A stretch of 26,457 nt of DNA, taken from positions 1 to 26,457 of the IMG/VR virus record IMGVR_UViG_3300042509_003225; one strand, written 5' to 3'. Each line of letters starts with the position of its first letter. Positions within the stretch are counted from its first letter, which is position 1. The DNA is from a virus. Below the pieces are notes generated by a model, which made no database searches, was not told where the DNA came from, and saw only the letters and a list, made by a program, of their open reading frames with translations. The translations under genes were made by a program, and so were the position numbers. Shown one piece after another: positions 3,222-22,571 of this stretch.

Positions 3222-5282
3222 ATGCGGTTTAAAATACCTGGCAAGGAAGATGTAGATCTTTCTCAACTCCTCAGCGTACAAGTGGCAGGAGTCGAGTTGC
3301 TTCAAGGGAGAAGAGTTGTGAAGTTTACGAAAAGTCTTGATGCCGACTATGTTAAAAGTAACAAGTACTTTGAGGTAGCCGACAATTTACTGTCTGACAA
3401 GACAGAGATACAGTTCACGTACAGACTCAACGGAGAAATCAAGACGGTCTCTGTGGACAAGCGGAAACATCTACAAGATCTTTTCTACGACTATGCAGAA
3501 AAATATAAAGACCTGTATCTGTTCGACTGTGCGGAGAGCTTACTTTCTTTGCCTTGCTATATAGTTGATACAGGAATAGGTATAAATACAGCTGAAGAGC
3601 ATTTACGCTCTGCGGGGTTTAATTCTATAACTTTTATTCCCTCGAGCGATATAGAAAACATACAAGACAGAATCACGTACAATCACGGACAAGCATGGAA
3701 AAAAGCTGTTGAAGAAGAACACAAAAGATTTTTGATAGTAGACTCTGACTGTGTGTTCACTTCAAATTTTTTTAATTCGCTACTAAATATTAAAGGAATA
3801 GTTCCTGAGCTGGTCGACGTCTTGTTTCTAGGAGGAAGGCACCCTATCTCTATTGAGACAGAAGCAAACTATAGTAATTTCGTAAAGCTTGATGCTTGCT
3901 TCGCCTACATAGGAACTAGGGAAATTTTATATGAGTGGATAGGTAAGGTAGCAAATAGTGAGAAGCAGCTTCAGCTAGCTAGCGTAGTTTCAACTAGCGG
4001 AGTCAAGCAGTTCGCTCTAACGCATTCTCCTTTTTTAAGTGAAAACTTTAGAGACTTCAGGCTGCAGAGTTGTGGAGATCTTGGACTCGCATATAAAAGC
4101 AAGAGTAGCACCAAACACTACCCGTTAGCTTTTCATGATGAGGATATCAGAGAATTAGACTCTTCCTTCTGGGTTCAGGTTTATCCTGAGACTGAGTATG
4201 AGTTTAACACAGGAGAGTATCTGTTGTGGGAATCTCCAGATAAAGACAATGTGGACAACATCATAAAGAAGTTTACATTTCCCTCTGCGGGTGTTCTTAC
4301 GGTTAACGATGCAGTAGTCTGCGGAAGAGGTCTCGTGTTTAATAGAGACACTTCTACAAGGTACGGAGGAGTAACACAGCTAGGTACCGTAAGATTGCGT
4401 ACGCAAAAAAACTCAGAAACAAAATTAACCTGGTTTGGTAAATGCAATTTAGATAATAATCCAGACATTCCCCTGGAATACAAGGGAGGAACCGCATTAA
4501 ACATGACAAAACTTTTTGGAAACAACAATCTTTGTCACGCGTTACTAGATTCAATGGGCTGCGGGATACATGTACTAAATAAAGCTAAAATAGATTTGCA
4601 GTCGTTTGACTGGTATATAGTGCCCTCTTTTAAAAACAACATAATTTCCTCCCTGTATAAAAAGCTAAACCTAGCTAAAAATAAGTTAATTCATTGTGGC
4701 TTGAAATATGATCCTGTTACAAAGCAAACAAAAGCCACACACAAGAATGGCTTTATTTTTGACTCTGTTACATCGCCTACTTTTAGCGGGTTCGGCAGAC
4801 TATACCGCAAAGATACATTTTTGGATCTCCGGGAGTTATTTAAAGAGGAAATGAGTTCCGTTAGAGAACCGTACCGGTTGATATATCTTTCTAGAGAGGG
4901 AGGAGGAAGAGACGTACACAACCTCGAACCTTTTGAGGACCTGCTTGCTTCTCTGGGATTTGAAACAATATACGCAAGTAATCAAGCAGATCTCCCGAGG
5001 ATCATGCAAGAAGCTTCCGTGGTTATAGGCTCACACGGAGCTGCGATGGCAAACTGCGTGTTTTGCTCAACCAAAACTACTCTGATAGACTTGCTTCCTG
5101 CTTATTATATTGCTCCGTACTATATGAGCTTAGCTGACTCAGTAGGATTTAAATATTATGGTATCGTTTGCGCTGAGAGCGAACCCAATAAGAAAGTTTC
5201 TAGCTCTGCGCCTCACGCACAAAGAAGCATGTTTGTTAACACAGACAAATTAAAAAGTTTTTTAGAAACAACCGTACTGTAG
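3222..5282 (+). CDS. Two-domain glycosyltransferase: GT-A-like N-terminal half plus GT61 (DUF563) C-terminal half
   Basis: 686 residues. The C-terminal third matches GT61: a RLIYLSREGG element before a GRDVHN stretch, a GFETIYAS segment, and the hallmark GSHGAAMANCVF at about residue 603. These are the nucleotide-sugar-binding features of that family. The middle region (about 100-300) looks like a separate GT-A-type domain with FLIVDSDCVF (DSD near residues 174-176), a likely metal/sugar-nucleotide site. The first ~90 residues are unassigned and may be an adaptor. The start lies 8 bases after the fibre gene, without an SD sequence, so the two are probably co-transcribed. The protein probably transfers two different sugars in sequence; donor and acceptor are unknown. 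It is cytoplasmic, with no membrane segment seen. GT61 is secure, the N-terminal GT assignment moderate. Confidence 0.85.
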   Translation: MRFKIPGKEDVDLSQLLSVQVAGVELLQGRRVVKFTKSLDADYVKSNKYFEVADNLLSDKTEIQFTYRLNGEIKTVSVDKRKHLQDLFYDYAEKYKDLYLFDCAESLLSLPCYIVDTGIGINTAEEHLRSAGFNSITFIPSSDIENIQDRITYNHGQAWKKAVEEEHKRFLIVDSDCVFTSNFFNSLLNIKGIVPELVDVLFLGGRHPISIETEANYSNFVKLDACFAYIGTREILYEWIGKVANSEKQLQLASVVSTSGVKQFALTHSPFLSENFRDFRLQSCGDLGLAYKSKSSTKHYPLAFHDEDIRELDSSFWVQVYPETEYEFNTGEYLLWESPDKDNVDNIIKKFTFPSAGVLTVNDAVVCGRGLVFNRDTSTRYGGVTQLGTVRLRTQKNSETKLTWFGKCNLDNNPDIPLEYKGGTALNMTKLFGNNNLCHALLDSMGCGIHVLNKAKIDLQSFDWYIVPSFKNNIISSLYKKLNLAKNKLIHCGLKYDPVTKQTKATHKNGFIFDSVTSPTFSGFGRLYRKDTFLDLRELFKEEMSSVREPYRLIYLSREGGGRDVHNLEPFEDLLASLGFETIYASNQADLPRIMQEASVVIGSHGAAMANCVFCSTKTTLIDLLPAYYIAPYYMSLADSVGFKYYGIVCAESEPNKKVSSSAPHAQRSMFVNTDKLKSFLETTVL

Positions 5283-5285
5283 TTT

Positions 5286-6245
5286 ATGAGCGACAAATCT
5301 TTGTTTGTAGTCGTACCGTATTTTAATTTTGTAAATTACTCCTCAGGATTAAAAAATCTAAACAGGTTTGTAAGCCAGATGGCTATGTACCCTGACATTA
5401 AAATGGTGTTGGTAGAAGGATACAGAGAGACTAGCCTGCCTGATTTTACAGAAAAAATTTTCAAGCATATTAAAGTTCATCTTCCTAGCGTTTTGTGGGT
5501 CAAAGAAAATTTAATAAACATAGGCGTAGCTAGTTTGCCTGATGATTGGAAGTATGCCTCTTGGATAGACAGAGATATTTTATTCACAAATACAAGCTGG
5601 GTAGAGGAGACTATCCAGCAGCTAGAATACAACGATCTCGTGCAGCCTTGGACCTCTTGTGTTTTTTTAGATAAAGATCACCTTCCTGAAACTATAACAA
5701 AACACACGGAGTCTGTTGTTTTTGCTGAAAGCTTTTGTAGCTTTTTTGCGAAAAACACAATGACTACAGATAACTGGCATAGAGCCACGCCTTCCACGAT
5801 AGGAAGGCTTACCACTAATGTATGGGGAGGACATCCAGGACAGGCCTGGGCGATAACCAGAGAGTTCTATACAAAGCTAGGAGGATTGTACGACAAAGGG
5901 ATTGTAGGAGGAGCAGATTCACTAATCCTGATAGCTAAGTTAAAACTAAAAAGTACAGGCATGCTGGCTGGGATTGCTGAGGATGCTGCAGAGCATATAG
6001 GAAAACTGACCAACGCTCGAATATCTAGTGTGCGAGGCTTGGTTTGTCACTATAGTCATGGAGAGATTGAAGACAGGAACTATACACACAGACATAAAAT
6101 ATTGACGAACAATCAGTACAGTCCTGAAACTTGTTTAAAATATACCTCAGAAGGAGTTTTGACCTACAGAGAGCAAAATACAGCTCTCGAGCAAGAAGTT
6201 TATAACTATTTTAAAATGCGTAAAGAAGATGGAAATAACCAATGA
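5286..6245 (+). CDS. GT-A fold glycosyltransferase
   Basis: 319 residues. It starts with a VVVPYFNF strand typical of GT-A enzymes and has ASWIDRDILF, in which D95-R-D97 is the likely metal-binding DxD-type motif. A GGLYDKGIVGGAD segment at about residues 199-212 resembles the acceptor-side motif of GT2/GT7-like galactosyl- and N-acetylgalactosaminyl-transferases. A C-terminal HYSHGE element could supply the metal-binding His. The gene lies 3 bases after the GT61 fusion gene and overlaps the methyltransferase by 17 bases, so it belongs to the same operon. Sugar donor and acceptor cannot be read from the sequence. No SD sequence precedes the ATG. Confidence 0.8.
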   Translation: MSDKSLFVVVPYFNFVNYSSGLKNLNRFVSQMAMYPDIKMVLVEGYRETSLPDFTEKIFKHIKVHLPSVLWVKENLINIGVASLPDDWKYASWIDRDILFTNTSWVEETIQQLEYNDLVQPWTSCVFLDKDHLPETITKHTESVVFAESFCSFFAKNTMTTDNWHRATPSTIGRLTTNVWGGHPGQAWAITREFYTKLGGLYDKGIVGGADSLILIAKLKLKSTGMLAGIAEDAAEHIGKLTNARISSVRGLVCHYSHGEIEDRNYTHRHKILTNNQYSPETCLKYTSEGVLTYREQNTALEQEVYNYFKMRKEDGNNQ

Positions 6246-6810
6246 CTCTAGACTGGTCAGCATTACCCTGGAAGGGACACAATACATATCCTTGCGCTAT
6301 ATGATGCCTTGGAATCCTCTGAGCCCTAAAGGAATACAAGGCCTGCTTCATTTGGCTCAAGATGTGCAGGAGAAGGCAAAACATAAAAGTATATGGGTCG
6401 AAATAGGCACACACCACGGAGAGGCGGCAGCGCTGTTATTAGGGTTTAGATACATAAAAAAGCTACATTGTGTAGACATACTGGAAAATTCTTTAAGCGC
6501 TAGAAGATTGAAAGATGCTATACGTGAGGGCCGCTGCGTGCTCCACAAAAAATCATCACTAGATTTTTCTGAGGAAATAGATCAAGTTGACGTAGTGTAC
6601 ATCGACGGGAACCATAACTATGGGGATGTAAAGTCAGACATCGCTGCATGGTACGACAAAATTCCTTCTGGTGGAGTACTTGCAGGACACGACTATAATC
6701 AGGTAAGCTGGCCTGGCGCAGTAAAAGCAGTAGATGAATTTTTAGCTAATAATAAAGAGCTCACCCTACAAAAGTATATAGATTCTAGTTGGGCTATATT
6801 TAAACCGTAG
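6229..6810 (+). CDS. Class I SAM-dependent methyltransferase
   Basis: 193 residues. SAM-binding motif I is WVEIGTHHGEAA (about 57-67). The acidic end of beta2 is LHCVDI (79-84). Motif IV is VVYIDGNHNYGDVKSDI (122-138), and a GGVLAGHDY strand follows (148-156). This arrangement (YIDGxHxYxxVxxDI, then GGxxxGHD) is characteristic of the Methyltransf_24 / sugar or O-methyltransferase group often found in glycan clusters. It probably methylates a sugar hydroxyl made by the neighbouring transferases (inference). The start overlaps the preceding gene by 17 bases, implying coupled translation. It is the last gene before a 100-base gap with a hairpin. Confidence 0.85.
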   Translation: MEITNDSRLVSITLEGTQYISLRYMMPWNPLSPKGIQGLLHLAQDVQEKAKHKSIWVEIGTHHGEAAALLLGFRYIKKLHCVDILENSLSARRLKDAIREGRCVLHKKSSLDFSEEIDQVDVVYIDGNHNYGDVKSDIAAWYDKIPSGGVLAGHDYNQVSWPGAVKAVDEFLANNKELTLQKYIDSSWAIFKP

Positions 6811-6833
6811 CAGGTTAAATTAAATTGCTCGAT

Positions 6834-6863
6834 TCTCTGTAATATGTTATATATTAACAGAGA
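6834..6863 (+). promoter_or_regulatory. Imperfect inverted repeat in the 6811-6910 intergenic gap
   Basis: TCTCTGTAATAT pairs with ATATTAACAGAGA across a 5-base loop, with one bulged A. No T-run follows on the plus strand, so it is not a standard intrinsic terminator. The stem contains TGTTATATA, which resembles an extended -10 element, so it could be a promoter/operator or an RNA processing hairpin. It sits at the junction between the methyltransferase and the beta-solenoid gene pair. Confidence 0.45.
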
Positions 6864-6910
6864 TTATGAGCAAAAAAACAAAGTATTTTTAACTTCGGAG
6901 ATACTGATGC

Positions 6911-7348
6911 ATGAAGGTGTATCGGTATTTTTTTATGCTTTATGCAGCTCTCATATTTATTTTTGTTGTTATGCCGCTATTGACTAAATTTACAGATATC
7001 AGACGAGCTTCTGGAGTTCTAGACAAGTTCTCTAGAACCAATCCACTATACTTCTATGCCGTAGGCAGCGACACACAGTGGACTAATCTGGCTAACTGGT
7101 ATAAAAATCTTAGCCGTAAAACAAACGCAACGAGTTTACCGACCAGTTCATCAAAAGTTACATTACTCTCTAGTTGCGCAGCGAATCTAGACTCTTCGAG
7201 TTGGGTAACGCCTAAAAGCATATATCTAGAAAAAGATGTTACCTTGACCCTAACGTCTACCGCAGCCACACCTCCAGCTTTTTCTTGTTCAGTGTACGGA
7301 GAAAGGTCTGCAAGACTAATAGCAAATAATGTAGCTCTGCGACCTTAG
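6911..7348 (+). CDS. Membrane-anchored protein with start of a beta-solenoid
   Basis: 145 residues. Residues about 7-25 are a strong hydrophobic segment after a Lys/Arg-containing start, either a signal anchor or an uncleaved signal peptide. After a polar linker comes WTNLANWYKNLS and then a SSKVTLLSS segment, resembling the DxxWxxxxNW plus PxxxDxV start of secreted beta-helical proteins. It ends abruptly in RLIANNVALRP. A CGGAG at 6896-6900, 10 bases before the ATG, is one of the few SD-like sites here. The next gene starts 1 base after the stop and continues with beta-solenoid-like sequence, so the two may form one functional unit or a split gene. Function unknown; likely surface- or virion-associated. 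Confidence 0.7.
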   Translation: MKVYRYFFMLYAALIFIFVVMPLLTKFTDIRRASGVLDKFSRTNPLYFYAVGSDTQWTNLANWYKNLSRKTNATSLPTSSSKVTLLSSCAANLDSSSWVTPKSIYLEKDVTLTLTSTAATPPAFSCSVYGERSARLIANNVALRP

Positions 7349-7349
7349 T

Positions 7350-8837
7350 ATGGCTGACCAGAATCAAATATTTGTAAACACCACACTGAATGCGGGAGCA
7401 ACTCTGCACACTACTGTGCACGGAGAGGTGGAAATAAACGAAGGAGGAGGCAATTGCGGTACGGTGATAGGAAATATTAACGTACGCAAAGGAGGAAATC
7501 ACGGGAAAAGCTGTCCAACAAGCACACTATGTACAGGGAAAGTGGTTGTCGACGCTGAGGGAGAAATATATGGTCAAGTCTTGGGAGAGGTTGTTCTCAA
7601 TGCAGGAGCGATAGCTGGTAGTCCTAATCAGCCTGCAGTAGTTACAGGAAAGGTAGTGATACGGAATAACGCTATAATAAATAACGTAACAGTATATGGT
7701 GACGCCAGAGTTCAGAGGCTTGCAAATACAGCTAACGCAGCGATATACGGAGCAGTTACCGAGTATAAAGTTGGTCCTTACATAAACGCGTATTATGGAG
7801 ATAACGGAGAGATTGCTTCCGCTACGGTAATAAATCTGCCTACCCCTGCTCTGGATGGTCCGGCTAATGTATACTACAATTACTCTGCAGGGTCTTCTAA
7901 TCCTGCTAATGGATATTACAGCACTGGGAGATATTTAAATGGAGGTATCACTACTGTACCTGTGCCTACGCCTCGCCCAGCAATAGACGATGGGATATTC
8001 AGAGTATACAACGTCGCAGGAAGAGATAATGCTCCGACGCAAACACCAACAACCCGAGTTGCCAGTGGAGTATACAGCAACGGCTACTTTCAATCTGGAA
8101 CTTTTTACTATCCAGCTTTTGGAGAAGTTAAACCTAGCGTGCCTCTAGATATACCTGCAGCAGCGAACAGGAGAGTGTATTTCCAAGGAGCCGACGCTAT
8201 TTTTGATGCATACTCTGGACTAAACGCAGGAACAGGAGGAACACCCGAATATGTTCCTGCTGACCCTGGCGGGACAGCTACAGGATCGGCGGCTTTTGCT
8301 GCAGGGACAGATCGTTGGGAAGGAGACACAGCAGGCTGGAGTGGATATAGCTCGAGAGGATGGGTGTCGGGGCCTTATACTACAGGATTTTACAATAACG
8401 GGTATTTAAGTACCCCTCCAACAGGAACAGGGTTTACGAAAACTATCGATGGAAACCTCATAAGGTCAACTACAGGAACGCAGACTTCTGAAACTACACT
8501 GGCTGCAGCACGATACAACTCAGCTGGAGAGCCTCTAGAGCTTAACAAAGGTTACCTGGGCAATGCCTACGGAGGTTCCACGTCTTCTCGTAAGGAAATA
8601 TGGGTACCACAAAATCAGACACTCGGCTTAGATGCGGAGGTATTTGCAAATCCAAATTTATCGACACCTCTAGCTCAGGACTTCAGCTACAACAACTTTA
8701 TTTACTCAGTAAACTTATCAGGAGTTATCGACGAGATTACTCCTTTACCTACAGGATATACTTCTACCACTCCAATAGCTGGGATGGGTAGTTTCCCCAA
8801 TTCAACAAATTCAGGTTCTACAACCATAGTTATATGA
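7350..8837 (+). CDS. Beta-solenoid (bactofilin/hexapeptide-like) fibre-type surface protein
   Basis: 495 residues. Roughly the first 150 residues show short-period beta repeats (GEVEIN, GKVVVDAEGEIYGQV, GEVVLNAGAI, GKVVIRNNAIINNVTVYGDA), typical of a right- or left-handed beta-solenoid. The remainder is Gly/Thr/Tyr-rich with several copies of a motif of the type YxxGYF...DxGxFxxY..G, also seen in the first protein of the window. No signal peptide is present; the preceding gene carries the membrane segment. The stop overlaps the next start in an ATGA junction (8834-8837), linking it transcriptionally to the following glycosyltransferases. It is probably a structural or adhesion protein and a candidate glycan acceptor (inference). 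Confidence 0.75.
   Translation: MADQNQIFVNTTLNAGATLHTTVHGEVEINEGGGNCGTVIGNINVRKGGNHGKSCPTSTLCTGKVVVDAEGEIYGQVLGEVVLNAGAIAGSPNQPAVVTGKVVIRNNAIINNVTVYGDARVQRLANTANAAIYGAVTEYKVGPYINAYYGDNGEIASATVINLPTPALDGPANVYYNYSAGSSNPANGYYSTGRYLNGGITTVPVPTPRPAIDDGIFRVYNVAGRDNAPTQTPTTRVASGVYSNGYFQSGTFYYPAFGEVKPSVPLDIPAAANRRVYFQGADAIFDAYSGLNAGTGGTPEYVPADPGGTATGSAAFAAGTDRWEGDTAGWSGYSSRGWVSGPYTTGFYNNGYLSTPPTGTGFTKTIDGNLIRSTTGTQTSETTLAAARYNSAGEPLELNKGYLGNAYGGSTSSRKEIWVPQNQTLGLDAEVFANPNLSTPLAQDFSYNNFIYSVNLSGVIDEITPLPTGYTSTTPIAGMGSFPNSTNSGSTTIVI
7869..8021 (+). repeat. Divergent copy of the GYF/DxGxF module in the beta-solenoid protein
   Basis: The encoded segment has YYSTGRYLNGG, then RPAIDDGIFRVYNVAG. This parallels YSTGYF...PQKAIDTGDFYTYANG in the first gene of the window. 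The match is by eye and partial. Confidence 0.5.
8361..8477 (+). repeat. Second divergent copy of the GYF/DxGxF module
   Basis: Encodes PYTTGFYNNGYLS followed by FTKTIDGNLIRSTTG. It shares the GY-plus-aromatic and (K/A)xIDxG spacing of the module, but more loosely than the copy at 7869. Confidence 0.35.
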
Positions 8838-9895
8838 TAACCGAAGAAAAATTGCTTAGTGCTCTGCACACAGCTATAGATGACACAACTACGGAACATA
8901 TTAAGCTTGTGGACTCAAGCGTGTGGCGAGATGGAGCAGCTCCAGAAGTGGAGTTACCCACAGACCGCAGAGCTATCTGGACTGAGCCTTATCCTGGAAT
9001 ATACATCATCAACGTCAACGGAGTAAGACATTTCAAAAAGCAGTTCGGATCGATTCAAGAGCTTTTTAAAAAGGCGGTAGCCGCGAATTACACGATAAAT
9101 TCTTTAGCCTTTGACGTGCCTTCGAAGCCCAGACTTTTTAACTTTAAAAGTACAGAGAAAACTAGTGTAGCCATAATTACTATGTTTTCTCCAAAAGCCT
9201 CAAGAGACTGCTGGTTAGAATTTATTAAAAATGTGCAATTTCCTGACGATGTCGAAGTTGATGTGATTCTGGGAGATAATAGCGGAAACACAAACGTAAA
9301 AAATCTACAAGTTCAGCTAAAGAGTGAGTTGTCTTTAAAATATAGAGACATACACATTTTAGATTTGGGAGACCCTTACGAGGTTAAACCTGAAGACCAC
9401 TATCTAGAAATGCACAAGCATGCTCATGTGGCTGTGAATTATTCGATACTGCTGCAAGAACCCTCCAAGCACTTCGACTATATACTAAAAATAGAGGACG
9501 ATATGGAGCCTCCAGAGGACGGATTTGTAAGACTCTACGAGCAGATAAAAAATTTAGAGAAACAGAAAAAGAAAGTGGCTTGCGTAGGAGGGTACTATAG
9601 GCAGAAACTGGACCCTTCGACACCATGCCTATCTATGCAACCTTTCATATGGGGTAAGACTCCCAAAATTGAAGACATGCAGCCTAGACTGATACGGGTA
9701 GAGATGCAAGGAGGAGGATTCTCTTTGTACAACTGTAAAGCGTTACAAGAGGTGCTTCCGTATAGGCTGACGTTTAAAAGACCTCACGGTAATTTTTATA
9801 TGACTGGCTGGGACGGTAGCATTGGAGAAGAATGGTCAGCGTCTGGATGGGAACAATACTGCGACGGAACACTTTTTTGTAAGCATCATTTTTAA
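8834..9895 (+). CDS. GT-A fold glycosyltransferase (GT2-like)
   Basis: 353 residues. An N-terminal extension of about 110 residues has no recognised fold. The catalytic domain starts with VAIITMFSP. It has an acidic metal-binding motif in LKIEDDME (E221-D222-D223), then a GGGFSLYNC segment and a YMTGWDGSIGEEWSASGW stretch. It ends in CKHHF, whose His residues could complete the metal site. This order (DxD, GGxF, WDxxIGE, final His) fits an inverting GT-A enzyme. The start overlaps the stop of the fibre-like gene by 4 bases, suggesting translational coupling, and the next transferase begins 3 bases after its end. Specificity unknown. Confidence 0.8.
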   Translation: MITEEKLLSALHTAIDDTTTEHIKLVDSSVWRDGAAPEVELPTDRRAIWTEPYPGIYIINVNGVRHFKKQFGSIQELFKKAVAANYTINSLAFDVPSKPRLFNFKSTEKTSVAIITMFSPKASRDCWLEFIKNVQFPDDVEVDVILGDNSGNTNVKNLQVQLKSELSLKYRDIHILDLGDPYEVKPEDHYLEMHKHAHVAVNYSILLQEPSKHFDYILKIEDDMEPPEDGFVRLYEQIKNLEKQKKKVACVGGYYRQKLDPSTPCLSMQPFIWGKTPKIEDMQPRLIRVEMQGGGFSLYNCKALQEVLPYRLTFKRPHGNFYMTGWDGSIGEEWSASGWEQYCDGTLFCKHHF

Positions 9896-9898
9896 GCC

Positions 9899-10693
9899 AT
9901 GAACTACCTTTCTGCCACAACCATAGTTAAAAATGAAAAGCACTATATTAAAGAGTGGCTGGCTTACTACAAGAGCATGGGAGTCGAGCAGTTCTATATC
10001 TTTGATAACGGATCCACGGACGGAACAGAAGACGAAGTGTATGATTTACCCTTTTCGGACGATATAAACTTCATAGACTTTAAACTAAATAAAACAGACA
10101 AAATTGCTTCCGCTTATAACTTCGCAGTTGAATACTTTAAGAGCAAAACAGAGTGGATGATATTTTGTGATCCTGACGAGTTTTTTATACCTCAAGCTGT
10201 GGATGATTTGAGGAAATTTCTTGAAGACTACGAGGAGTTTTCTGGAGTAGGCGCAAACTGGAGAACGTACGGATCTTCTGGACACATTCTGCGACCAGTC
10301 TCAGGTCTTTGTGTTGAGAATTTTTTAAACAGAGGCAAAGACGACTGGTGCGTGAACTTGCACGTCAAAAGCATTGTAAAACCTAGCGAGGTGATAGGTT
10401 ATCTAAATCCTCATGTATTTAATACTTTAAAAGGAACTGCTGACGAGAACGGAGAATTAATTAAAGGAGAAACTCCAGGTAGACTAGAAGCTGTTAATGG
10501 GAGTAAGATAAGAGTTAATCAATATTTTACAAGAGCTTACGAGGATTATCTAGAAAAGTACAGAGCTAGCGACAAAACTTCGAGTAACTTTAAAGAACGT
10601 GCGGATATTGATTGGTTTGATGCCTACGACATTAATGAAGTCTATGACGATACCGCAAAACAATACGCAGAGCAAATAAGACAAAATTTATAA
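9899..10693 (+). CDS. GT92/DUF23-type glycosyltransferase
   Basis: 264 residues. It opens with SATTIVKNEKHYIKEWLAYY and then GVEQFYIFDNGSTDGT. This is the signature of the GT92 (DUF23) / Glyco_tranf_2_4 group, in which the NEKxYIxEWLxYY helix follows the first strand and DNGSxDGT ends the second. The metal-binding motif is CDPDEFF (D91-P-D93-E94). A conserved NLHVKSIVKP segment and an NPHVFN element follow. It lies between two other transferases with 3-base and 1-base gaps. Family membership is clear; donor sugar and acceptor are not. Confidence 0.88.
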   Translation: MNYLSATTIVKNEKHYIKEWLAYYKSMGVEQFYIFDNGSTDGTEDEVYDLPFSDDINFIDFKLNKTDKIASAYNFAVEYFKSKTEWMIFCDPDEFFIPQAVDDLRKFLEDYEEFSGVGANWRTYGSSGHILRPVSGLCVENFLNRGKDDWCVNLHVKSIVKPSEVIGYLNPHVFNTLKGTADENGELIKGETPGRLEAVNGSKIRVNQYFTRAYEDYLEKYRASDKTSSNFKERADIDWFDAYDINEVYDDTAKQYAEQIRQNL

Positions 10694-10694
10694 T

Positions 10695-11507
10695 ATGGAA
10701 AAAATTCCCTGGTTCATCTGTCTTAACGACAGAAAAAACATATATAACGATCTAGCTAAAATAGCGGCCAAATCGTCGGAGGTGTGCGAAAATTTTGACC
10801 GTTACTGTCTGTATGCTGGAGAAGACCAAGCATTCGTAGATTACCTTACAGGTACAGGAGTCACAGTCATTAAACATAAATCGACATTTACTGACGATAT
10901 AAACAAGACAAATCGAATCCCTGGTGAAAAACTATTGATGCAGGGTACGTATATGCGTATGGATATTCCAAAAGTAATGCATGAGCGCGGACTAGACTAC
11001 TCGCACTACTTCTATACAGATACTGACGTAATTTTTCAGAAAGACCCATATACCGAACTTGTAGATAATCTACCCTCCACTATAGCAGCTACAGGAGAAT
11101 TTACAGAGCAAGGCAATGTTAAGAACTTGTTTAATGCAGGAGTTATGCTGTGTAACACACGATACATGTACAACAGTTACGAAGATCTTATACAGTTTGT
11201 AAAACTAGGTAAGTACAACTTTCAAGCTCATGATCAAGGAGCTTTAAATATTTTTTACAAAGACGCAGTCTGCAAATTTTCAGATCTTCTTAATTGGAAG
11301 ATTTACTGGGGAATTAACAAAGAAGCTTATCTTGTCCATTTTCACGGACTTAAAATAGACCGTCTGGAAGACTTTGTTACCCTGGACCGTGAAAAGTTTT
11401 TACAAAAATGGCCTATGATTAGGCATATTGTAAACTACAAGCCAGACACAGGCGAAGCGCTTAACTATTACTACAACACATATAAACAACAGCTAGCTTC
11501 TTTGTAA
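10695..11507 (+). CDS. GT8-like glycosyltransferase, tandem paralogue 1
   Basis: 270 residues. It starts IPWFICLND and has FYTDTDVIFQ (DTD at 109-111), LFNAGVMLCN (about 145-154), a HDQGALN element and HFHGLK near the C-terminus. DxD, FNxGxMLxN, DQxxLN and HxxG are the GT8 retaining-transferase motifs, the last His binding the metal. It probably transfers glucose or galactose (family knowledge, not visible here). The next gene is a clear paralogue with all motifs in the same order. The ATG follows TTATAAT with no SD sequence. Confidence 0.85.
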   Translation: MEKIPWFICLNDRKNIYNDLAKIAAKSSEVCENFDRYCLYAGEDQAFVDYLTGTGVTVIKHKSTFTDDINKTNRIPGEKLLMQGTYMRMDIPKVMHERGLDYSHYFYTDTDVIFQKDPYTELVDNLPSTIAATGEFTEQGNVKNLFNAGVMLCNTRYMYNSYEDLIQFVKLGKYNFQAHDQGALNIFYKDAVCKFSDLLNWKIYWGINKEAYLVHFHGLKIDRLEDFVTLDREKFLQKWPMIRHIVNYKPDTGEALNYYYNTYKQQLASL

Positions 11508-11509
11508 TT

Positions 11510-12313
11510 ATGAGCTCAATACCCTGGTTCATCTGTCTTAATGATCTATATCAAGAGCAAGCAAAAGTGGCTGTAGCTACTGCCGAAATTTGTAAAAACT
11601 TTAAGCGCTATTGTCTGTATAACGGCAATGATGAGGCTTTTGTTCGTTTCTTGGAGAGCTATGAGGTGACTGTAATAAGAGGAGAGTGCGCTATACATGA
11701 CGAAATCCACGAGTATGTGTCTGACCCTAACGAAGTGCGCACAGCCTGTTCCACATATCTTAGGTTAGATGTTCCTGTTGTACTTAAAAAGCTCGAGGTT
11801 AAAGCATCGCATTATCTGTATACGGATGTGGATGTTCTTTTCCAAAGTGACCCGTACGAGTTACTCAACAGCTATTTGCCAGAGACTTTTGCTGCTGCAG
11901 GAGAGAACGCTAAAAATTGTGATGTAAGCAAACATTTTAATGCAGGAGTGCTGTGGTGCAATAGTGAGTACATGCTCGAAACATACGACGCGCTCATCAC
12001 AAGCATTACAGATAAACAGTTTAAATTCGCAGGAAGAGACCAGGGAGCTCTGAATAGCTTTTATAAGACCTCAGTTAAAAAGCTTAGCGATCTATTGAAT
12101 TGGAAAACTTACTGGGGTATAAATGATGATGCAAGCATTATACATTATCACGGAATGCAGAGCGATCGTGCTGAAAAACTGATTGAGCTTGGAGCCTCTC
12201 TTTTTGCTGAACGAATCCCTGGATTAAAGCCGCTGGTATGTCATAGTAAACACGCGGAGGAATCAATAATTCACTATTATCGTAAATTTCAAAGCCTGCT
12301 AAAAACTTTATGA
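11510..12313 (+). CDS. GT8-like glycosyltransferase, tandem paralogue 2
   Basis: 267 residues, homologous along its whole length to the preceding gene: IPWFICLND start, LYTDVDVLFQ (DVD at 106-108), HFNAGVLWCN, RDQGALNSFY, LLNWKTYWGIN and HYHGMQ. All GT8-type motifs are intact, so both copies should be active, perhaps on successive positions of the same glycan. At the DNA level a 20-base stretch encoding PWFICLN is identical in the two genes although most of the rest has diverged. The stop overlaps the sulfotransferase start in an ATGA junction. Confidence 0.85.
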   Translation: MSSIPWFICLNDLYQEQAKVAVATAEICKNFKRYCLYNGNDEAFVRFLESYEVTVIRGECAIHDEIHEYVSDPNEVRTACSTYLRLDVPVVLKKLEVKASHYLYTDVDVLFQSDPYELLNSYLPETFAAAGENAKNCDVSKHFNAGVLWCNSEYMLETYDALITSITDKQFKFAGRDQGALNSFYKTSVKKLSDLLNWKTYWGINDDASIIHYHGMQSDRAEKLIELGASLFAERIPGLKPLVCHSKHAEESIIHYYRKFQSLLKTL

Positions 12314-13218
12314 ATATTATCTACAATAAAAAACACGACTACGTGATGTGTTACGTGCCCAAGGCAGGATGCAGCCTCATGCGTAAAATATACAAAGACT
12401 TTCACGAAGATGAGTACTCTTCTTGGGACGGGCTTAATTTCAGCTCGCTATTTGTTACCGGCAACGACAAGCCTCAGGTCTATGCAACAAGCAACAAGTT
12501 TATTTTGGTTAGGAATCCTTATAAGCGAGTACTCAGCGCCTACTATGATAAGTTCTTACATGTCCAGGGAAGCCAAACAACTCTTTCTGTAAAGTTTGTA
12601 AATTTATTTAAATTGTACTGTATTACAAAAGATGCAGAGCTGGTAGCCACTGCTTCAGACAATGACGAGCTGCATAGATTGTCTCCGTCATTAAAATCAT
12701 TGATCAGAAAGGCGAAGCTGCCGATCAACCTAGGTGATGTGCCTGACGACTTTGATACTTCGTTTAGAAGGTATCTGGAGTTTTTAAAGTTCTTTAAAGC
12801 TAACGGAATCTTCAATCTCGAAGAGCACCACGAACTTCAGTGCTTTTATCCCTACCCTGGCTGGGAGCTCGACAGGATTTTAAAAGATATATATGTAATG
12901 GATATTGAACGTCTTCCTGACGGTGTAGCAGAGTTTTACGGAAGATTTTTAAGCGAAGGGGATCTTGCCCGGATAAAAGAGCTGACTGCACAAAATTTAA
13001 AAGTACATGCGAACAGGAACAGCACCGCCCCTAAAAAAGATCTGAGAGGCAGCATTTCTGCAACCACACACGGAGACGAAATTGTGAAATTGGCTACAGA
13101 AACCAACACACTACCAGATCATTTCACTATGTTTGATCCGGACACAGAGAGCTTGTTTTACGAGATATTTGCAAAAGACTTTACCGCGTTTAACTATAAG
13201 AGAATGTATGAAAAATAA
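12310..13218 (+). CDS. Sulfotransferase, PAPS-dependent carbohydrate type
   Basis: 302 residues. The 5'-phosphosulfate loop is VPKAGCSLMRKIY (16-28) and the 3'-phosphate-binding segment is FILVRNPYKRVLSAYYDKF (64-82), matching the RNPYxRxxSxY signature of the Sulfotransfer_2 (HNK-1 / chondroitin-type) family. These enzymes move a sulfate from PAPS to a sugar hydroxyl. Its place among glycosyltransferases, with overlapping start and end, argues that it sulfates the glycan this cluster builds. No membrane anchor is present, unlike eukaryotic Golgi relatives, so it acts in the cytoplasm. PAPS would have to come from the host. A heparan-type subfamily assignment cannot be excluded. Confidence 0.87.
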   Translation: MNIIYNKKHDYVMCYVPKAGCSLMRKIYKDFHEDEYSSWDGLNFSSLFVTGNDKPQVYATSNKFILVRNPYKRVLSAYYDKFLHVQGSQTTLSVKFVNLFKLYCITKDAELVATASDNDELHRLSPSLKSLIRKAKLPINLGDVPDDFDTSFRRYLEFLKFFKANGIFNLEEHHELQCFYPYPGWELDRILKDIYVMDIERLPDGVAEFYGRFLSEGDLARIKELTAQNLKVHANRNSTAPKKDLRGSISATTHGDEIVKLATETNTLPDHFTMFDPDTESLFYEIFAKDFTAFNYKRMYEK

Positions 13219-14209
13219 AATTTGTTTGGTTCTTCCCTATTACGGACCGTTTCATGCCTACTTTAATTTGTTTCTACATAGTGTAGGCAGAAACAAAGAC
13301 TTTTTTGATTTGTTGCTGGTTACAGATCATCCTGTGCCCGATCTACCCTCGAACGTTTATAACAAAATCTATTCAGTTGATGAGGTAGGTAAGAGAATAA
13401 CTGCAGCTATCAAAGATTGGTTTTCGGTAGATGTGGCTACACCCTTTCCTGAAGGCAAGATGTCCAACGGAAGACCGGCGCTGTATAAACTGTGCGATTA
13501 CAAATTTCTTTATGGTGACGTGTTTGCTGAAGAATTGCAGAGCTACCCTTATTGGGGGTTTGTAGACTGCGATCTTATTTTTGGAGATGCTTCCAAATTT
13601 CTTCAAGACTTTGAACAATACGACTTTATAGGCAACAGAGGTCATCTTTGTTTTTTAAAGAAAGGGGACAAAGCTAAAAATATTTTATTGGATGTGTCTA
13701 ACTGGCCAAATCACCCAAATTACATGCCGTCTAGACTAAAAGAAGCCAAGGAAAGTATCCCGAAGACTAGAGATCAACACCTACTAGATGAGGGATGGTT
13801 TCAATGTACACTTAAAATGTATGCCGGACTTTATCCTGATAAGTTCAAGTATTTTTATACTGCTTACTCGGGAATAGTGGCAGACACTTATCACCCAGGA
13901 GCTGAAAATAAATTATATTTTGATAAGCTACAGGCCAGGTTTGAATTCCCTGAAAAGCTACCAAATGGAGTAGCTCAAACAACTTTTAAAAATTTTGAAG
14001 AGCAGTATTTTGCGTATTTAGACGGCAGGGTTTTTCGCAAGAGCTTTGCAAATGCTTACGATTCTTGCGAGCACTTGTATGTACATCTCATAGGACGTAC
14101 GTCTTATGCTAGCAATAATGTCGGATTCAAAGACTACGACTCAAAACTGAACTTCACCATTAAACCTATTTTAACCTTCGACAAAATCGAAGAAGACTAC
14201 GAAATCTAA
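13208..14209 (+). CDS. DUF6625-like glycosyltransferase
   Basis: 333 residues from the ATG at 13208, chosen because the KICLVLPYYG strand begins immediately after it; an in-frame ATG at 13133 would overlap the sulfotransferase by 86 bases and add no conserved sequence. Features: LPYYGPFHAYFNLFLHS, LLLVTDHP, KLCDYKFLYGDVF, then YWGFVDCDLIFGD (D120-C-D122), a DxD-type metal site. This order is what I recall of the DUF6625 family, found in bacterial and phage glycan loci. It overlaps the sulfotransferase by 11 bases and is the last gene of the glycan block. Confidence 0.82.
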   Translation: MKNKICLVLPYYGPFHAYFNLFLHSVGRNKDFFDLLLVTDHPVPDLPSNVYNKIYSVDEVGKRITAAIKDWFSVDVATPFPEGKMSNGRPALYKLCDYKFLYGDVFAEELQSYPYWGFVDCDLIFGDASKFLQDFEQYDFIGNRGHLCFLKKGDKAKNILLDVSNWPNHPNYMPSRLKEAKESIPKTRDQHLLDEGWFQCTLKMYAGLYPDKFKYFYTAYSGIVADTYHPGAENKLYFDKLQARFEFPEKLPNGVAQTTFKNFEEQYFAYLDGRVFRKSFANAYDSCEHLYVHLIGRTSYASNNVGFKDYDSKLNFTIKPILTFDKIEEDYEI

Positions 14210-18345: not shown

Positions 18346-18885
18346 CTAGTTTTCTTCAAAATCAAAATACCTAGCTAGTAGATGGAGAAAATCACTCAGC
18401 CTATTGAGGTATTTTTTTAGTGTAGGTCTGACAACGCTGCCTTCAGCTTCTTCCATACGCAAAACAGATCTTTCTGCGCGACGGCAAACCTTAGAGGCGA
18501 AGTCTGCAAGCGAACCTCTTTTAGACTCTCCATACAGCACCCAGCCTTGCTGATCTAATTCAGACATGTTTTCAAGTAAAGAAACTTCAGCATCTAAAGA
18601 GTCTAGATCTTCTGTCTTTATCGAATCATATTTCAAAACATATTCATCACGCATCTCGGCTTCAGCTGCGATCTCTCCCATCAATAGAGTAAGCCTGTGT
18701 TGAATTTCTTTTAAAGAAGCTGCGTACTTGGGGTATTGATGAGCCTCATACTTCAGCATACCCATAGCAGCATTCAGCTCGTCAATGTCTCCCACAGCAG
18801 CGATGGCCGGGTCTGTCTTGCTTACCCTCGAACCGAACAATCTTCCTGTTTTTCCTTTGTCTCCTGATTTTGTAGCGATCTTCAT
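18346..18885 (-). CDS. pduO: PduO-type ATP:cob(I)alamin adenosyltransferase
   Basis: 179 residues, the usual length of the core enzyme. The N-terminal ATP-binding stretch is TKSGDKGKTG (5-14) with SRVSKTDP and VGDIDELNAAMG (31-42). The second half has YGESKRGSLADFASKVCRRAER (signature CRRAER at 134-139) and YLNRLSDFLHLLAR (159-172). These are the diagnostic PduO-family motifs, including the NRLSD/F element that helps form the active site at the trimer interface. The enzyme transfers the adenosyl group of ATP to cob(I)alamin, giving adenosylcobalamin. That is the cofactor of the class II ribonucleotide reductase encoded 650 bases further on the same strand (19531-21381). This pairing is the main clue to its role. 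It is the first gene of a minus-strand unit; no SD sequence precedes the ATG. Confidence 0.96.
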   Translation of the reverse strand: MKIATKSGDKGKTGRLFGSRVSKTDPAIAAVGDIDELNAAMGMLKYEAHQYPKYAASLKEIQHRLTLLMGEIAAEAEMRDEYVLKYDSIKTEDLDSLDAEVSLLENMSELDQQGWVLYGESKRGSLADFASKVCRRAERSVLRMEEAEGSVVRPTLKKYLNRLSDFLHLLARYFDFEEN

Positions 18886-18924
18886 AGCTCACAATCTTGT
18901 GACTCCTCACAGCAAAAGTCAAAC

Positions 18925-18946
18925 ATTTGTGGTATAATATATTGAT
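18925..18946 (+). promoter_or_regulatory. Extended -10 promoter, shared motif copy B
   Basis: TATAAT at 18933-18938 preceded by TGG, in a 22-base block matching 14237-14258 at 21 positions. It lies 22 bases upstream of the ATG at 18968. No -35 element at the normal distance is apparent. Confidence 0.72.
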
Positions 18947-18967
18947 GAGATCACCCGATTTTATTTT

Positions 18968-19453
18968 ATGATACCACTAACCGAAGACAAAAAACTAGAC
19001 TTGATAGACATGTTCGTCGCGGCTGTAGAGTCCGAAACGGTATGCAAAAACGCTAAACCGTACATGGAGATGATTAACGATGTGAATGGTGTGGCAGTGA
19101 TGCCTAGTAACTTCTGGGCATGTCCTTGTGGAGAGTGCCACCCTATGAGTTTTTTACAGGTAGCTGTGAACAGTCAGGCATTTGAAACTATCCAAAGATA
19201 TGTTGAAAAAATAATGACTACATTACCTCTCCATTCCGGAGCAGTGTTCACCACAGTATTCAAACCTGGAGAAATGGAGGATGCCGAACCTACGGTGCTT
19301 TGTTTGAAAAACTACGACAGCGAGTTCCCTGACCTCGAATATTCAAAGGTGGACAGGTACCACTTCAACTTGGTCAGCAGAAAATTAAAGGATCATATTA
19401 CCTTCTGGGAAGGCATTACAGATGCTTTGATAGCTATGCTTGGAACAGACTGA
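18968..19453 (+). CDS. Hypothetical protein, 161 residues, CPCGEC motif
   Basis: A monocistronic gene with its own promoter (18925) and terminator (19473). It has an acidic, helical N-terminus (EDKKLDLIDMFVAAVES), a FWACPCGECHPMSF segment at about residues 50-63 with three Cys and one His that could bind a metal, and a C-terminal LKDHITFWEGITDALIAML helix. No family is recognised. It lies between the adenosyltransferase and the reductase but on the opposite strand. Being singly transcribed with a motif-sharing promoter suggests early or separately timed expression (inference). Confidence 0.72.
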   Translation: MIPLTEDKKLDLIDMFVAAVESETVCKNAKPYMEMINDVNGVAVMPSNFWACPCGECHPMSFLQVAVNSQAFETIQRYVEKIMTTLPLHSGAVFTTVFKPGEMEDAEPTVLCLKNYDSEFPDLEYSKVDRYHFNLVSRKLKDHITFWEGITDALIAMLGTD

Positions 19454-19472
19454 TTTGAATTAGCGTGAACAC

Positions 19473-19516
19473 AAAAACACCCACAACAAAAGTAATTCGT
19501 TGTGGGTGTTTTTTTT
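19473..19516 (+). terminator. Bidirectional rho-independent terminator
   Basis: ACACCCACAAC (19477-19487) pairs with GTTGTGGGTGT (19499-19509), an 11-bp perfect stem with an 11-base loop, followed by seven Ts on the plus strand and flanked by five As on the other side. It therefore serves both the 18968-19453 gene and the converging reductase gene. Confidence 0.93.
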
Positions 19517-19530
19517 AGCTGTCAGCTACT

Positions 19531-21381
19531 CTACAGCTCTAAGCTACAGGCTCCTCCTGCACAAGCAATCTCTCCTTTGAAGTCAGTGTTATCTTTTCTT
19601 TCACGAATATCTTCAAATTTGAACTCGTCGGTGACGAGAGAAAAAGCCTTCTCTAAAATTTCAAAAATTTCAGGATGTGGAGGCTGGCTGTAGGGCAGGT
19701 ATTTATAGTCTCCGCCGTCATATGGAATGAGGCTGATACCATAATATGAATCTCTGTTATCTAGCATCCAGCGCTTGATCGCTTCTTTTTCATGCTCGTG
19801 GTAGTTTATGGTTAGACTGATGTTGTGGGTATTGTCTCCAACAATGTGCCCTGGAACAATCCAGCTGTCATACAATACTTTCACGCGCTCCAAACACTGC
19901 ACAGCGGTTTCCTGGCTTCTGAGGAGTGTGGTGTCATACAGTTTGATAGGAACCTGCATGATCATGTCGTTGCTGTTGAATGGATCTTCTGCAACAAAAG
20001 CAGGGAATTTCTTGGCTAAAGCTTTAGCCAGCGCGCTAAACTTATCCATACGTACACGACGCACATAACGAATCTCATGTCCTGCATGTACACCTGCAGT
20101 TGTTCCTAGCCAGCTGCTGCTGGTTCCTGAAGGTTTTGTGGTAGTTATTCGGCGAGCAGGGTTGATTCCCAGCTTTTGCGCCCAGAGCTTGTTTACCTGA
20201 ACTGCTACCTCTGCACCTTCTTTAAGGTTTTCTGGAGTCAAAATGGCTTGAGCTTCAGCTTGTCCTGTGATGCTCACCCCTAGCAACGCTTCTTCGTCTG
20301 CGTTCTTTTTCCACTCAGGCTGCACATATTTAAAGTCTGTATAGGTTGCTTGTAGTGTTCCTAGAATAGTCGCACTAACAACAGCCTTCAGCCAATCTTC
20401 TTTGCTGAAGCATTGAGCGGCATTAATTTCTGTAAGGTTGCAGACACCCATACTCTTGAGTGCAATCTCGTGACAAGGATTGAATCCCATCTCATCATCG
20501 TTGGTGAGACTCAGGCCAGGCTCTGCCTGACCGCCAGCAAAACAAGCATCAATTACCCTGCCTGCTTTTTCTCTAAAGTCTGGATCGTCTTTGCGTAGAA
20601 CAGCGGAGTTATTTGCACGAGCAAGCTCAGGATATTTTTCCCACCAGTTGTTTGCTTTGCAGTTCAGAAGTTCTTCATCATCCACATCGAACAGACTAAT
20701 CAGTGCTCCTCTACGAACGCCTCCGACAACAACGCAATCGGCAATCAAACAGGCAACGCGATGACATTCGAAAGGGGTGAGTTGCCGTCCGACAGCCTTC
20801 CTCAAAATTGCACGGACATTCGCATGCATCTTGATTAGAGCTTTCGGACCACTAGCTGTCCCTCCTGTACTCAAAGGAGCACCCATAGGACGAATGGGAG
20901 TATAGTCGAACTGCAGATCAGGGTTGCGGAAAAGTTCCAGCAAGCTATCGCACCAACCCTCTGCCGAGTCAGCCACAACATAGGGAGGGACCACAGCGCC
21001 TTCGGGAATAGCTCCTAGAGAAGAGATGTGTTTCTTTTTGACGCTGAAGCCGACACCTACACCGCTCATGCTCATGTAGAATAGGTCTGCAAAATCTCTA
21101 AACTTTGTGATGTTTAGGAAACTGCAATTAAACATTCGATTATTGCGACGCTCAATTGCTTCGCCAGCGAACTGGAAGCTGCGCATGCTGGGAACTACCC
21201 TACCGGCAAAAACCTGCTCGTATGCTTTTTCAATAGCTTCTGCATGCTCAGGAAACTTCCGGATATGCATCTGCATATTCCTATTTATAGTCTCCTCTTT
21301 AGACTCTCTGCGAAGCTCTTCAGGAAGATATTTTGCGTATGTGCGGTAGTGTACGAGTTTGCTTAGGAATTCCTTGCTCAT
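19531..21381 (-). CDS. nrdJ: Class II (adenosylcobalamin-dependent) ribonucleotide reductase, RTPR type
   Basis: 616 residues. It reduces ribonucleotides to deoxyribonucleotides using adenosylcobalamin to start the radical. Visible active-site features: MFNCSF (C86), and NPCHEIAL with N301, C303 and E305, followed by C314 in GVCNLTEIN. The C303-C314 spacing of 11 equals C408-C419 of the Lactobacillus leichmannii enzyme, and N, C and E sit at the same relative positions as N406, C408 and E410. TKPSGTSSSW and GVHAGHEIRYVRR match the phosphate-binding region. The C-terminal CAGGAC (C607, C612) is the redox relay pair. It is shorter than the ~739-residue Lactobacillus protein, as phage members often are; no intein is seen. 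Upstream on the same strand are the amidase-like gene and dCMP deaminase. Confidence 0.96.
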   Translation of the reverse strand: MSKEFLSKLVHYRTYAKYLPEELRRESKEETINRNMQMHIRKFPEHAEAIEKAYEQVFAGRVVPSMRSFQFAGEAIERRNNRMFNCSFLNITKFRDFADLFYMSMSGVGVGFSVKKKHISSLGAIPEGAVVPPYVVADSAEGWCDSLLELFRNPDLQFDYTPIRPMGAPLSTGGTASGPKALIKMHANVRAILRKAVGRQLTPFECHRVACLIADCVVVGGVRRGALISLFDVDDEELLNCKANNWWEKYPELARANNSAVLRKDDPDFREKAGRVIDACFAGGQAEPGLSLTNDDEMGFNPCHEIALKSMGVCNLTEINAAQCFSKEDWLKAVVSATILGTLQATYTDFKYVQPEWKKNADEEALLGVSITGQAEAQAILTPENLKEGAEVAVQVNKLWAQKLGINPARRITTTKPSGTSSSWLGTTAGVHAGHEIRYVRRVRMDKFSALAKALAKKFPAFVAEDPFNSNDMIMQVPIKLYDTTLLRSQETAVQCLERVKVLYDSWIVPGHIVGDNTHNISLTINYHEHEKEAIKRWMLDNRDSYYGISLIPYDGGDYKYLPYSQPPHPEIFEILEKAFSLVTDEFKFEDIRERKDNTDFKGEIACAGGACSLEL

Positions 21382-21463: not shown

Positions 21464-22150
21464 TTACTTCTTGCCTTCTTCAATGCAACTCAACATAGAG
21501 ACACCTGACTGACTTAGATGGTTGAGCGCCCAAGAAGGAAAAGGCAAACTGTAGGAAGAGCTAGATGCATTACTTCCAGAAACTATAGTTGCACGAGCAG
21601 AAGCTTTTGGGATCAGCCTCGTAGTATTTTCAAGCATGGTGGTCGAGAGATCCCAGCGAGAGCATATATCTTTAAGCAATAAAACCAAGCTCGCCACTTG
21701 CTCTTTGCTGTAATCTGCCCAGTAGTTGTATCCTTTGAATTTATGTTCAAAAACTGGTCCTTTATATAGGTTAGAAGGATGTACATAACCAAAAGCATAA
21801 TACCGACTATTCTCCTTCTCCAAGTAAAGCTCATTACACAGATAGATACTGATACTGCTTTTGTTCAAGGAAGAGACCCGCTTGTCAGGTCCTAGATGAT
21901 TCGACCAGTAGTCCTCATCGAAGCAGCTAAATATTTCTCCTGACCTGCCTACGACATAATGCCCTGCTACCTTGTCTCCGAGAAGACCCCAGGTCTTCAT
22001 CAGATAGTTTTCACTATTCTGTTCAGAGGTATAGGAATATTTCGTTCTAGACAGGCTTCCATGCAAAACAATATTTGTTTTGTCTGATCGAGCTGACACA
22101 AAACTTTTAGAAGATATGTCAAACGGAGTGTGGTTTAAAGAGGTGCGCAT
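21464..22150 (-). CDS. N-acetylmuramoyl-L-alanine amidase-like (Amidase_2/PGRP) protein, possibly degenerate
   Basis: 228 residues. IVLHGSLS (H30) is the first zinc-ligand position. VAGHYVVGRSGEIFSCF (H64) and a WSNHLG element (H85) follow, as in T7 lysozyme-like amidases, then SISIYLCNE. A KGYNYWADYSKEQVASLVLLL helix is also typical. The expected C-terminal block (GHxDIxPxRKxDPG), which supplies the second zinc His and catalytic residues, is not seen. A Ser-rich SGSNASSSS stretch followed by PFPSWAL stands in its place. It may be inactive, or a divergent enzyme using other ligands. It would otherwise cut peptidoglycan at lysis or entry. The start overlaps the end of the dCMP deaminase gene by 32 bases; no signal peptide. 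Confidence 0.75.
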   Translation of the reverse strand: MRTSLNHTPFDISSKSFVSARSDKTNIVLHGSLSRTKYSYTSEQNSENYLMKTWGLLGDKVAGHYVVGRSGEIFSCFDEDYWSNHLGPDKRVSSLNKSSISIYLCNELYLEKENSRYYAFGYVHPSNLYKGPVFEHKFKGYNYWADYSKEQVASLVLLLKDICSRWDLSTTMLENTTRLIPKASARATIVSGSNASSSSYSLPFPSWALNHLSQSGVSMLSCIEEGKK

Positions 22151-22571
22151 ATGAGCTGTCTAGTTGCCTTACATTTATATTTAAACTGCTGGCTAGATGC
22201 AAGGCTGCTTGATCTCTGCCATATAGTTCACTGTAGATTATTTCTTTAACTCCGTGAGCTGCTGCCAGCTTTAAGCACTCCGTACATGGAGATAGAGTTA
22301 CGTAAAGATAGTGAGGCTCTCCCTGTTTTGTATATCTCAGACAGTTGTATTCAGCATGATCCACAAAAGGCCGTCGCTTATCTCTGTCTGACCAGTCTAT
22401 TTCAACTCCAGCCGGAGTTCCATTGTATCCGGTACCTATTGTTGAGTGGTCTGACTTAAATGCTGCAGCTCCCACTTGCACATAAGGATCAGGAGATCTT
22501 TGAGCTGCGGCATAAGCAAGTAAAAGCCCGTACTGATCCCAGTCGGGACGTGTTCTTTCTGTAGGATTCAT
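22119..22571 (-). CDS. Deoxycytidylate (dCMP) deaminase
   Basis: 150 residues. The zinc/catalytic motif is DHAEYN (H72, E74), with PCTEC (C96, C99) completing the zinc site. A GTGYNGTPAG segment (46-55) and VQVGAAAF before it are typical of the ComE/dCMP deaminase family. It converts dCMP to dUMP, the precursor for dTMP. It lies in the same minus-strand group as the class II reductase, so the two would jointly raise dNTP supply during phage replication. It overlaps the amidase-like gene by 32 bases and starts 6 bases after the 62-residue gene ends. The allosteric dCTP site of T4-type enzymes cannot be judged by eye. Confidence 0.93.
   Translation of the reverse strand: MNPTERTRPDWDQYGLLLAYAAAQRSPDPYVQVGAAAFKSDHSTIGTGYNGTPAGVEIDWSDRDKRRPFVDHAEYNCLRYTKQGEPHYLYVTLSPCTECLKLAAAHGVKEIIYSELYGRDQAALHLASSLNINVRQLDSSYAHLFKPHSV

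Follow-up and report, generated by a model that had tools for sequence, protein, structure and literature searches.

The window, by which we mean the whole stretch of DNA analysed, is an IMG/VR-type virus fragment of 26,457 nucleotides (IMGVR_UViG_3300042509_003225). The region of interest holds genes for a predicted class II ribonucleotide reductase (RNR) and a putative PduO-type adenosyltransferase, with the following features in and around them.

18346..18885, minus strand: PduO-type ATP:cob(I)alamin adenosyltransferase, 179 aa (PF01923, TIGR00636, AF2/Foldseek)
18886..18967, no strand assigned: divergent intergenic region, probable separate PduO promoter (inferred from gene layout)
18968..19453, plus strand: ORF of 161 aa between RNR and PduO, on the opposite strand to both (no Pfam match, no PHROG match)
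19473..19513, no strand assigned: terminator-like hairpin, bidirectional, separating RNR from the convergent ORF (sequence, fold)
19531..21381, minus strand: class II (adenosylcobalamin-dependent, predicted) monomeric RNR, 616 aa (phrog_367, TIGR02505, 1l1l)
22119..22571, minus strand: nucleotide metabolism gene, dCMP deaminase-like, near RNR and PduO (PF00383, phrog_174)

The sequence-only reading had placed the two genes on one strand about 650 bases apart; both ORFs are real, both lie on the minus strand, and the gap is 645 bp. Directly past the RNR stop, the hairpin has a folding energy of -25.9 kcal/mol (z -5.6) and A/T runs on its flanks. With this hairpin and an opposite-strand ORF in the gap, RNR and PduO in the window are probably not on one transcript. 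A promoter scan gave no signal above shuffles.

From its alignments, the 616-aa protein is judged to be a small monomeric class II RNR with a predicted dependence on adenosylcobalamin (AdoCbl). The best models were phrog_367 (E 4e-114) and the RTPR model TIGR02505 (E 5e-60), but the score against the latter, 203.4 bits, is under the curated cut-off of 340.05, and the window RNR is therefore regarded as a divergent RTPR-like enzyme. Its sole PDB match was the Lactobacillus leichmannii class II RTPR (1l1l), which shares the single-subunit architecture but has 739 aa. Residues C86, N301, C303, E305, C314, C607, and C612 align with C119, N406, C408, E410, C419, C731, and C736 of 1l1l, respectively, and these seven catalytic residues are invariant across a 14-sequence alignment. 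The window RNR has SLIP aligned with SLLP of RTPR, at what we take to be the Tyr-Tyr site of class I RNRs, and is without the radical-transfer Tyr-Tyr; NrdB (the class I beta subunit, PF00268) was absent from seven related contigs, some of which are fragments. Values of dN/dS for RNR among relatives were 0.02-0.03, indicating purifying selection, albeit from few unsaturated pairs. An AF2 model of the RNR was set aside because its pLDDT was 47.

By family and helix-bundle fold, the 179-aa protein is assigned as a PduO-type corrinoid adenosyltransferase. It scored 138.7 bits against PF01923 (cut-off 24) and 114.1 bits against the TIGR00636 equivalog model, above the cut-off of 108.45, and its sequence matches in PDB were PduOs, down to 3e-21. 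The AF2 model (pLDDT 90.2, pTM 0.85) gave top Foldseek matches that were all PduO (2zhz/6d5x/3ci1), with TM about 0.8. The gene is also under purifying selection among relatives (dN/dS 0.09-0.11, again from few unsaturated pairs).

The sequence-only reading had made its proposal depend on retention of the residues that bind ATP and cobalamin, and most of those checked are indeed retained. The N-terminal ATP motif TxxGDxGxT, Lys23, and Asp35 are invariant in 13 relatives and in the more distant locus L047, and the fold, the ATP motif, the arginines and glutamate of RRAER, and the NRLSD motif are common to the window PduO, human MMAB, and Lactobacillus reuteri PduO. In the human enzyme, Arg186, Arg190, Glu193, and Arg194 contact ATP and AdoCbl, with support from Ser217 (PMC9262797). 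The window equivalents of the last four, R135, E138, R139, and S164, are invariant, but the equivalent of human Arg186 (L. reuteri Arg128) is Ser131, adjoining Lys132. This loss is clade-wide: every protein of the window's clade, clade A below, has Ser or Ala at this position, followed by an invariant Lys, whereas the remaining RNR-linked viral clades, B, C, and D, have retained Arg, as have the cellular relatives. Clade A PduOs also have a Pro to Tyr change in the PG loop and a long stem branch in the tree. Loss of the Arg186 equivalent thus lowers the claim of ordinary catalysis but not that of family homology, and these substitutions make an altered function possible in clade A. A further difference from the characterised enzymes is at the position of L. 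reuteri Phe112, the aromatic residue that displaces the lower ligand, whose Ala and His variants are inactive (PMC6257451); it is a conserved Trp115 in the window PduO. This Trp was ruled out as a viral defect because the same residue is found in Verrucomicrobiota PduOs. Conservation across the deep clade argues for some function of clade A PduO.

The window itself has additional matches to PhoH, amidase, dCMP deaminase, an RNA-polymerase beta-domain, and a glycan-modification cluster. The last, at 3222-14209 on the plus strand, encodes glycosyltransferases (GT61, GT92/GT2, GT8), a methyltransferase, a sulfotransferase, and DUF6625, and reads as a phage glycan-modification island. The plus-strand ORF at 22813-23505 matches RNA polymerase Rpb2 domain 3, which, together with Rpb1 domains in relative G009, suggests a phage-encoded multisubunit RNA polymerase. 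G009 (L054-L064) also contains AAA_5 and DUF3150 domains, presumably the phage 'CobS/CobT-like' pair that is frequently labelled as B12 genes. Neither Rfam nor tRNA searches found anything in the window. Relatives of the window are up to 204 kb long, and because the largest carries tail and tail-fibre proteins, RNA polymerase Rpb1 domains, RecA, DNA ligase, and UvdE, the source is judged to be a large tailed phage. Searches of the window's group with phrog_2 and PF03237 found no terminase, so phage identity is based on the tail, RNA polymerase, and replication genes.

If the two genes belong together, they should co-occur in related phages, as the sequence-only reading had expected, and they do. 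Among 17 IMG/VR records with RNRs of 80-100% identity, 15 have PduO (50-100% identity) downstream of and on the same strand as RNR. One exception, G014, is a fragment whose contig stops about 6 kb past RNR. In the other, G008 (L014), a 503-bp deletion bounded by 7-bp repeats of AACTGGC (L014:8440-8560) has removed PduO, and the flanks are 95-98% identical to relatives; PduO is thus not always essential. RNR and PduO are as close as 5 bp (L013) and as far apart as 2.8 kb, and the gap is often occupied by opposite-strand ORFs. These gap ORFs vary between loci (L003, L008, L011, L017, L021), resembling an insertion hotspot.

The pairing also extends to several other virus lineages. A broad IMG/VR scan by PduO alignment, from which the best 80 of 204 viral contigs were taken, contributed to a pooled set of 79 viral contigs, all of them found through PduO scans without use of RNR. 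Of these contigs, 44 have a class II RNR in the PduO flank, always upstream and on the same strand; the median gap is about 600 bp. Nine RNR-less contigs have less than 2.1 kb of upstream sequence, leaving an informative set of 44/70; the 26 others have upstream sequence but no RNR within 10 kb, and in five of them an RNR occurs farther off. By comparison, a class II RNR neighbour was seen at only one of 80 cellular PduO loci, and there on the opposite strand. The linkage is far beyond chance (44/70 versus 1/80, Fisher p 2e-18), although related contigs are not independent and flanks were 10 kb for viral and 6 kb for cellular loci, some being shorter; a count of clades is therefore the better measure.

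Motifs and the PduO tree distinguish four RNR-linked clades: A, containing the window, with L047 and L162 as a sister branch; B (L164, L167, L173); C (L169 and others); and D (L183-L220). In the tree, the supported branches require at least five changes of RNR label. The partner RNRs of clades A-D are RTPR-like, and monomeric in the window clade and L162, whereas the partner in L047 is a dimeric NrdJ over its cut-off; PduO was thus retained across a change of reductase type. Partner RNRs in other viral lineages, such as L165 and L173, exceed the TIGR02505 cut-off. Tight pairs occur in clades A, B, and D, with gaps of 5 bp (L013) and 20 bp (L173) and a TAATG overlap (L212, L218). Terminases in L162 and in clade B and D contigs confirm that these are phages; clade C contigs are short, and their phage identity is unconfirmed. 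Overall, the recurrent pairing involves no fewer than four clades of PduO and two types of class II RNR across several virus lineages. Two loci have further features. The RNR ORF of L162 (6470-9793) is 1108 aa long and contains an intein-like stretch at residues about 478-624. L047, on the 172-kb contig G018, also carries ThyX and a GMP reductase-like gene, and the closest matches of its NrdJ among phage records are the huge phages LR756501-LR756503.

The closest cellular PduOs found were 36-45% identical to that of the window, and 78 of the 80 cellular records kept have Verrucomicrobiota in their titles. In the tree, the Verrucomicrobiota and viral-clade PduOs group together at 98 SH-aLRT, to the exclusion of nine other PduOs. 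The cellular scan was restricted to the sequence patterns of the family, and this kinship is therefore a hint to the host and not proof. The Verrucomicrobiota proteins share the Trp of the window PduO but, unlike it, retain both the PG loop and an equivalent of Arg186, and have no class II RNR neighbour.

Class II RNR phages had been described in the sequence-only reading as normally reliant on the host for their cofactor, and this fits the cultured ones: over a thousand of 50,697 phage records contain related RNRs, no genuine PduO was recognised in those 50,697 records, and most cultured class II RNR phages are without any recognised adenosyltransferase. Two PduO matches examined in the annotated phage collection were rejected as bacterial DNA, Bacteroidales-like in MT836462 and actinobacterial-like in MT838864, and the collection's Listeria, Enterococcus, Salmonella, and Acinetobacter phage records with PduO look like host DNA too. 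L156 and L237 from this collection read as bacterial chromosome, with cobyrinate synthase and methylmalonyl-CoA mutase genes.

The nearest precedent is cyanophage P-SS2 (Sullivan et al. 2009, PMC2784084), which likewise has a class II RTPR (TIGR02505 646.8 bits) and a corrinoid adenosyltransferase; the latter, however, is of the CobO/BtuR family, unrelated to PduO, and lies 14 kb from RNR in a single genome. In the available text of that paper, its authors regarded the role of such genes as unclear and drew no connection between RNR and cobO. Cobaviruses and RTPR-carrying virioplankton are likewise phages with a B12-dependent class II RNR, and are held to depend on host or environmental B12, the accessible text of the two papers mentioning no phage adenosyltransferase (PMC6775973, PMC10547690). 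A wastewater virome study includes cobA among viral metabolic genes (PMC11183165). We found no report of phage PduO-RNR pairing among the open-licence papers that the search covered. Each enzyme alone is ordinary; what stands out is that the pairing recurs convergently and that the active site of the window clade is remodelled.

The phage PduO probably makes AdoCbl for the phage's own class II reductase. A large tailed phage would thereby encode a two-gene dNTP module in which the reductase produces dNTPs via an AdoCbl radical, and PduO, at its trimer interfaces, would move adenosyl from ATP onto a reduced host or scavenged cobamide, Co(II) reduction probably falling to host flavoproteins. The reductase would thus have AdoCbl made or regenerated for it whenever a surge of phage DNA synthesis outran host supply, relieving a cofactor limitation. 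The analysis shows homology and fold, conservation of the catalytic residues of RNR, purifying selection, repeated linkage, and, in relatives, operon-like adjacency; PduO catalysis, its corrin substrate, the agent of Co(II) reduction, and delivery to the reductase are what we infer. We advance only tentatively the wider proposal that phages have repeatedly built a module of class II RNR and adenosyltransferase, and that the clade A site was remodelled for direct hand-over of AdoCbl or for a cobamide on which the host enzyme performs badly.

Mutases and diol dehydratases are common clients of cellular PduOs, and the phage enzyme might by the same token serve host B12 enzymes during infection, e.g., methylmalonyl-CoA mutase, its linkage to RNR reflecting only a shared early-gene position. 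The nearest cellular kin being Verrucomicrobiota copies and the probable separate transcription of PduO in the window are consistent with such a role, but it is unlikely given that class II RNR is the partner gene in no fewer than four PduO clades, with coupled genes in several, and that an RNR neighbour is found at so few cellular loci. It is somewhat less probable still that the window-clade PduO has lost or altered its activity and acts for the reductase as an AdoCbl carrier, chaperone, or ATP-gated regulator. The clade-wide loss of Arg186/Arg128, the fixed Ser/Ala-Lys, the Pro to Tyr change, and the long stem branch all fit this, as does the behaviour of human MMAB, in which ATP binding triggers AdoCbl release and the client MMUT sensitises it (PMC9262797). 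Against it, the remaining ATP- and corrin-contacting residues checked are invariant, and the protein passes the TIGR00636 equivalog cut-off; clades B-D, moreover, keep the Arg, so the general function of viral PduO is probably catalytic. Finally, some phage-database PduO matches are plainly bacterial DNA, and one relative has deleted the gene, as might be seen if PduO were a passenger or an assembly or host contaminant without phage function. This is most improbable: the PduO clade is diverged and under purifying selection, and genes for tail, RNA polymerase, and replication are present on independent contigs of up to 204 kb, which rules out contamination as the origin of the linkage.

Many phages carry a class II RNR, and such phages are generally portrayed as reliant on B12 from the host. 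The pairing, mostly of adjoining genes, recurs in several unrelated lineages of uncultivated viruses; some viruses thus seem to carry their own cofactor activator instead of depending on the host, and a recurrent activator of this kind would alter the range of hosts that class II RNR phages can exploit. A viral PduO would also tie viral DNA synthesis to cobamide salvage, giving a testable prediction for burst size under cobamide limitation, and the clade A PduOs differ naturally at a position involved in human disease, MMAB Arg186.
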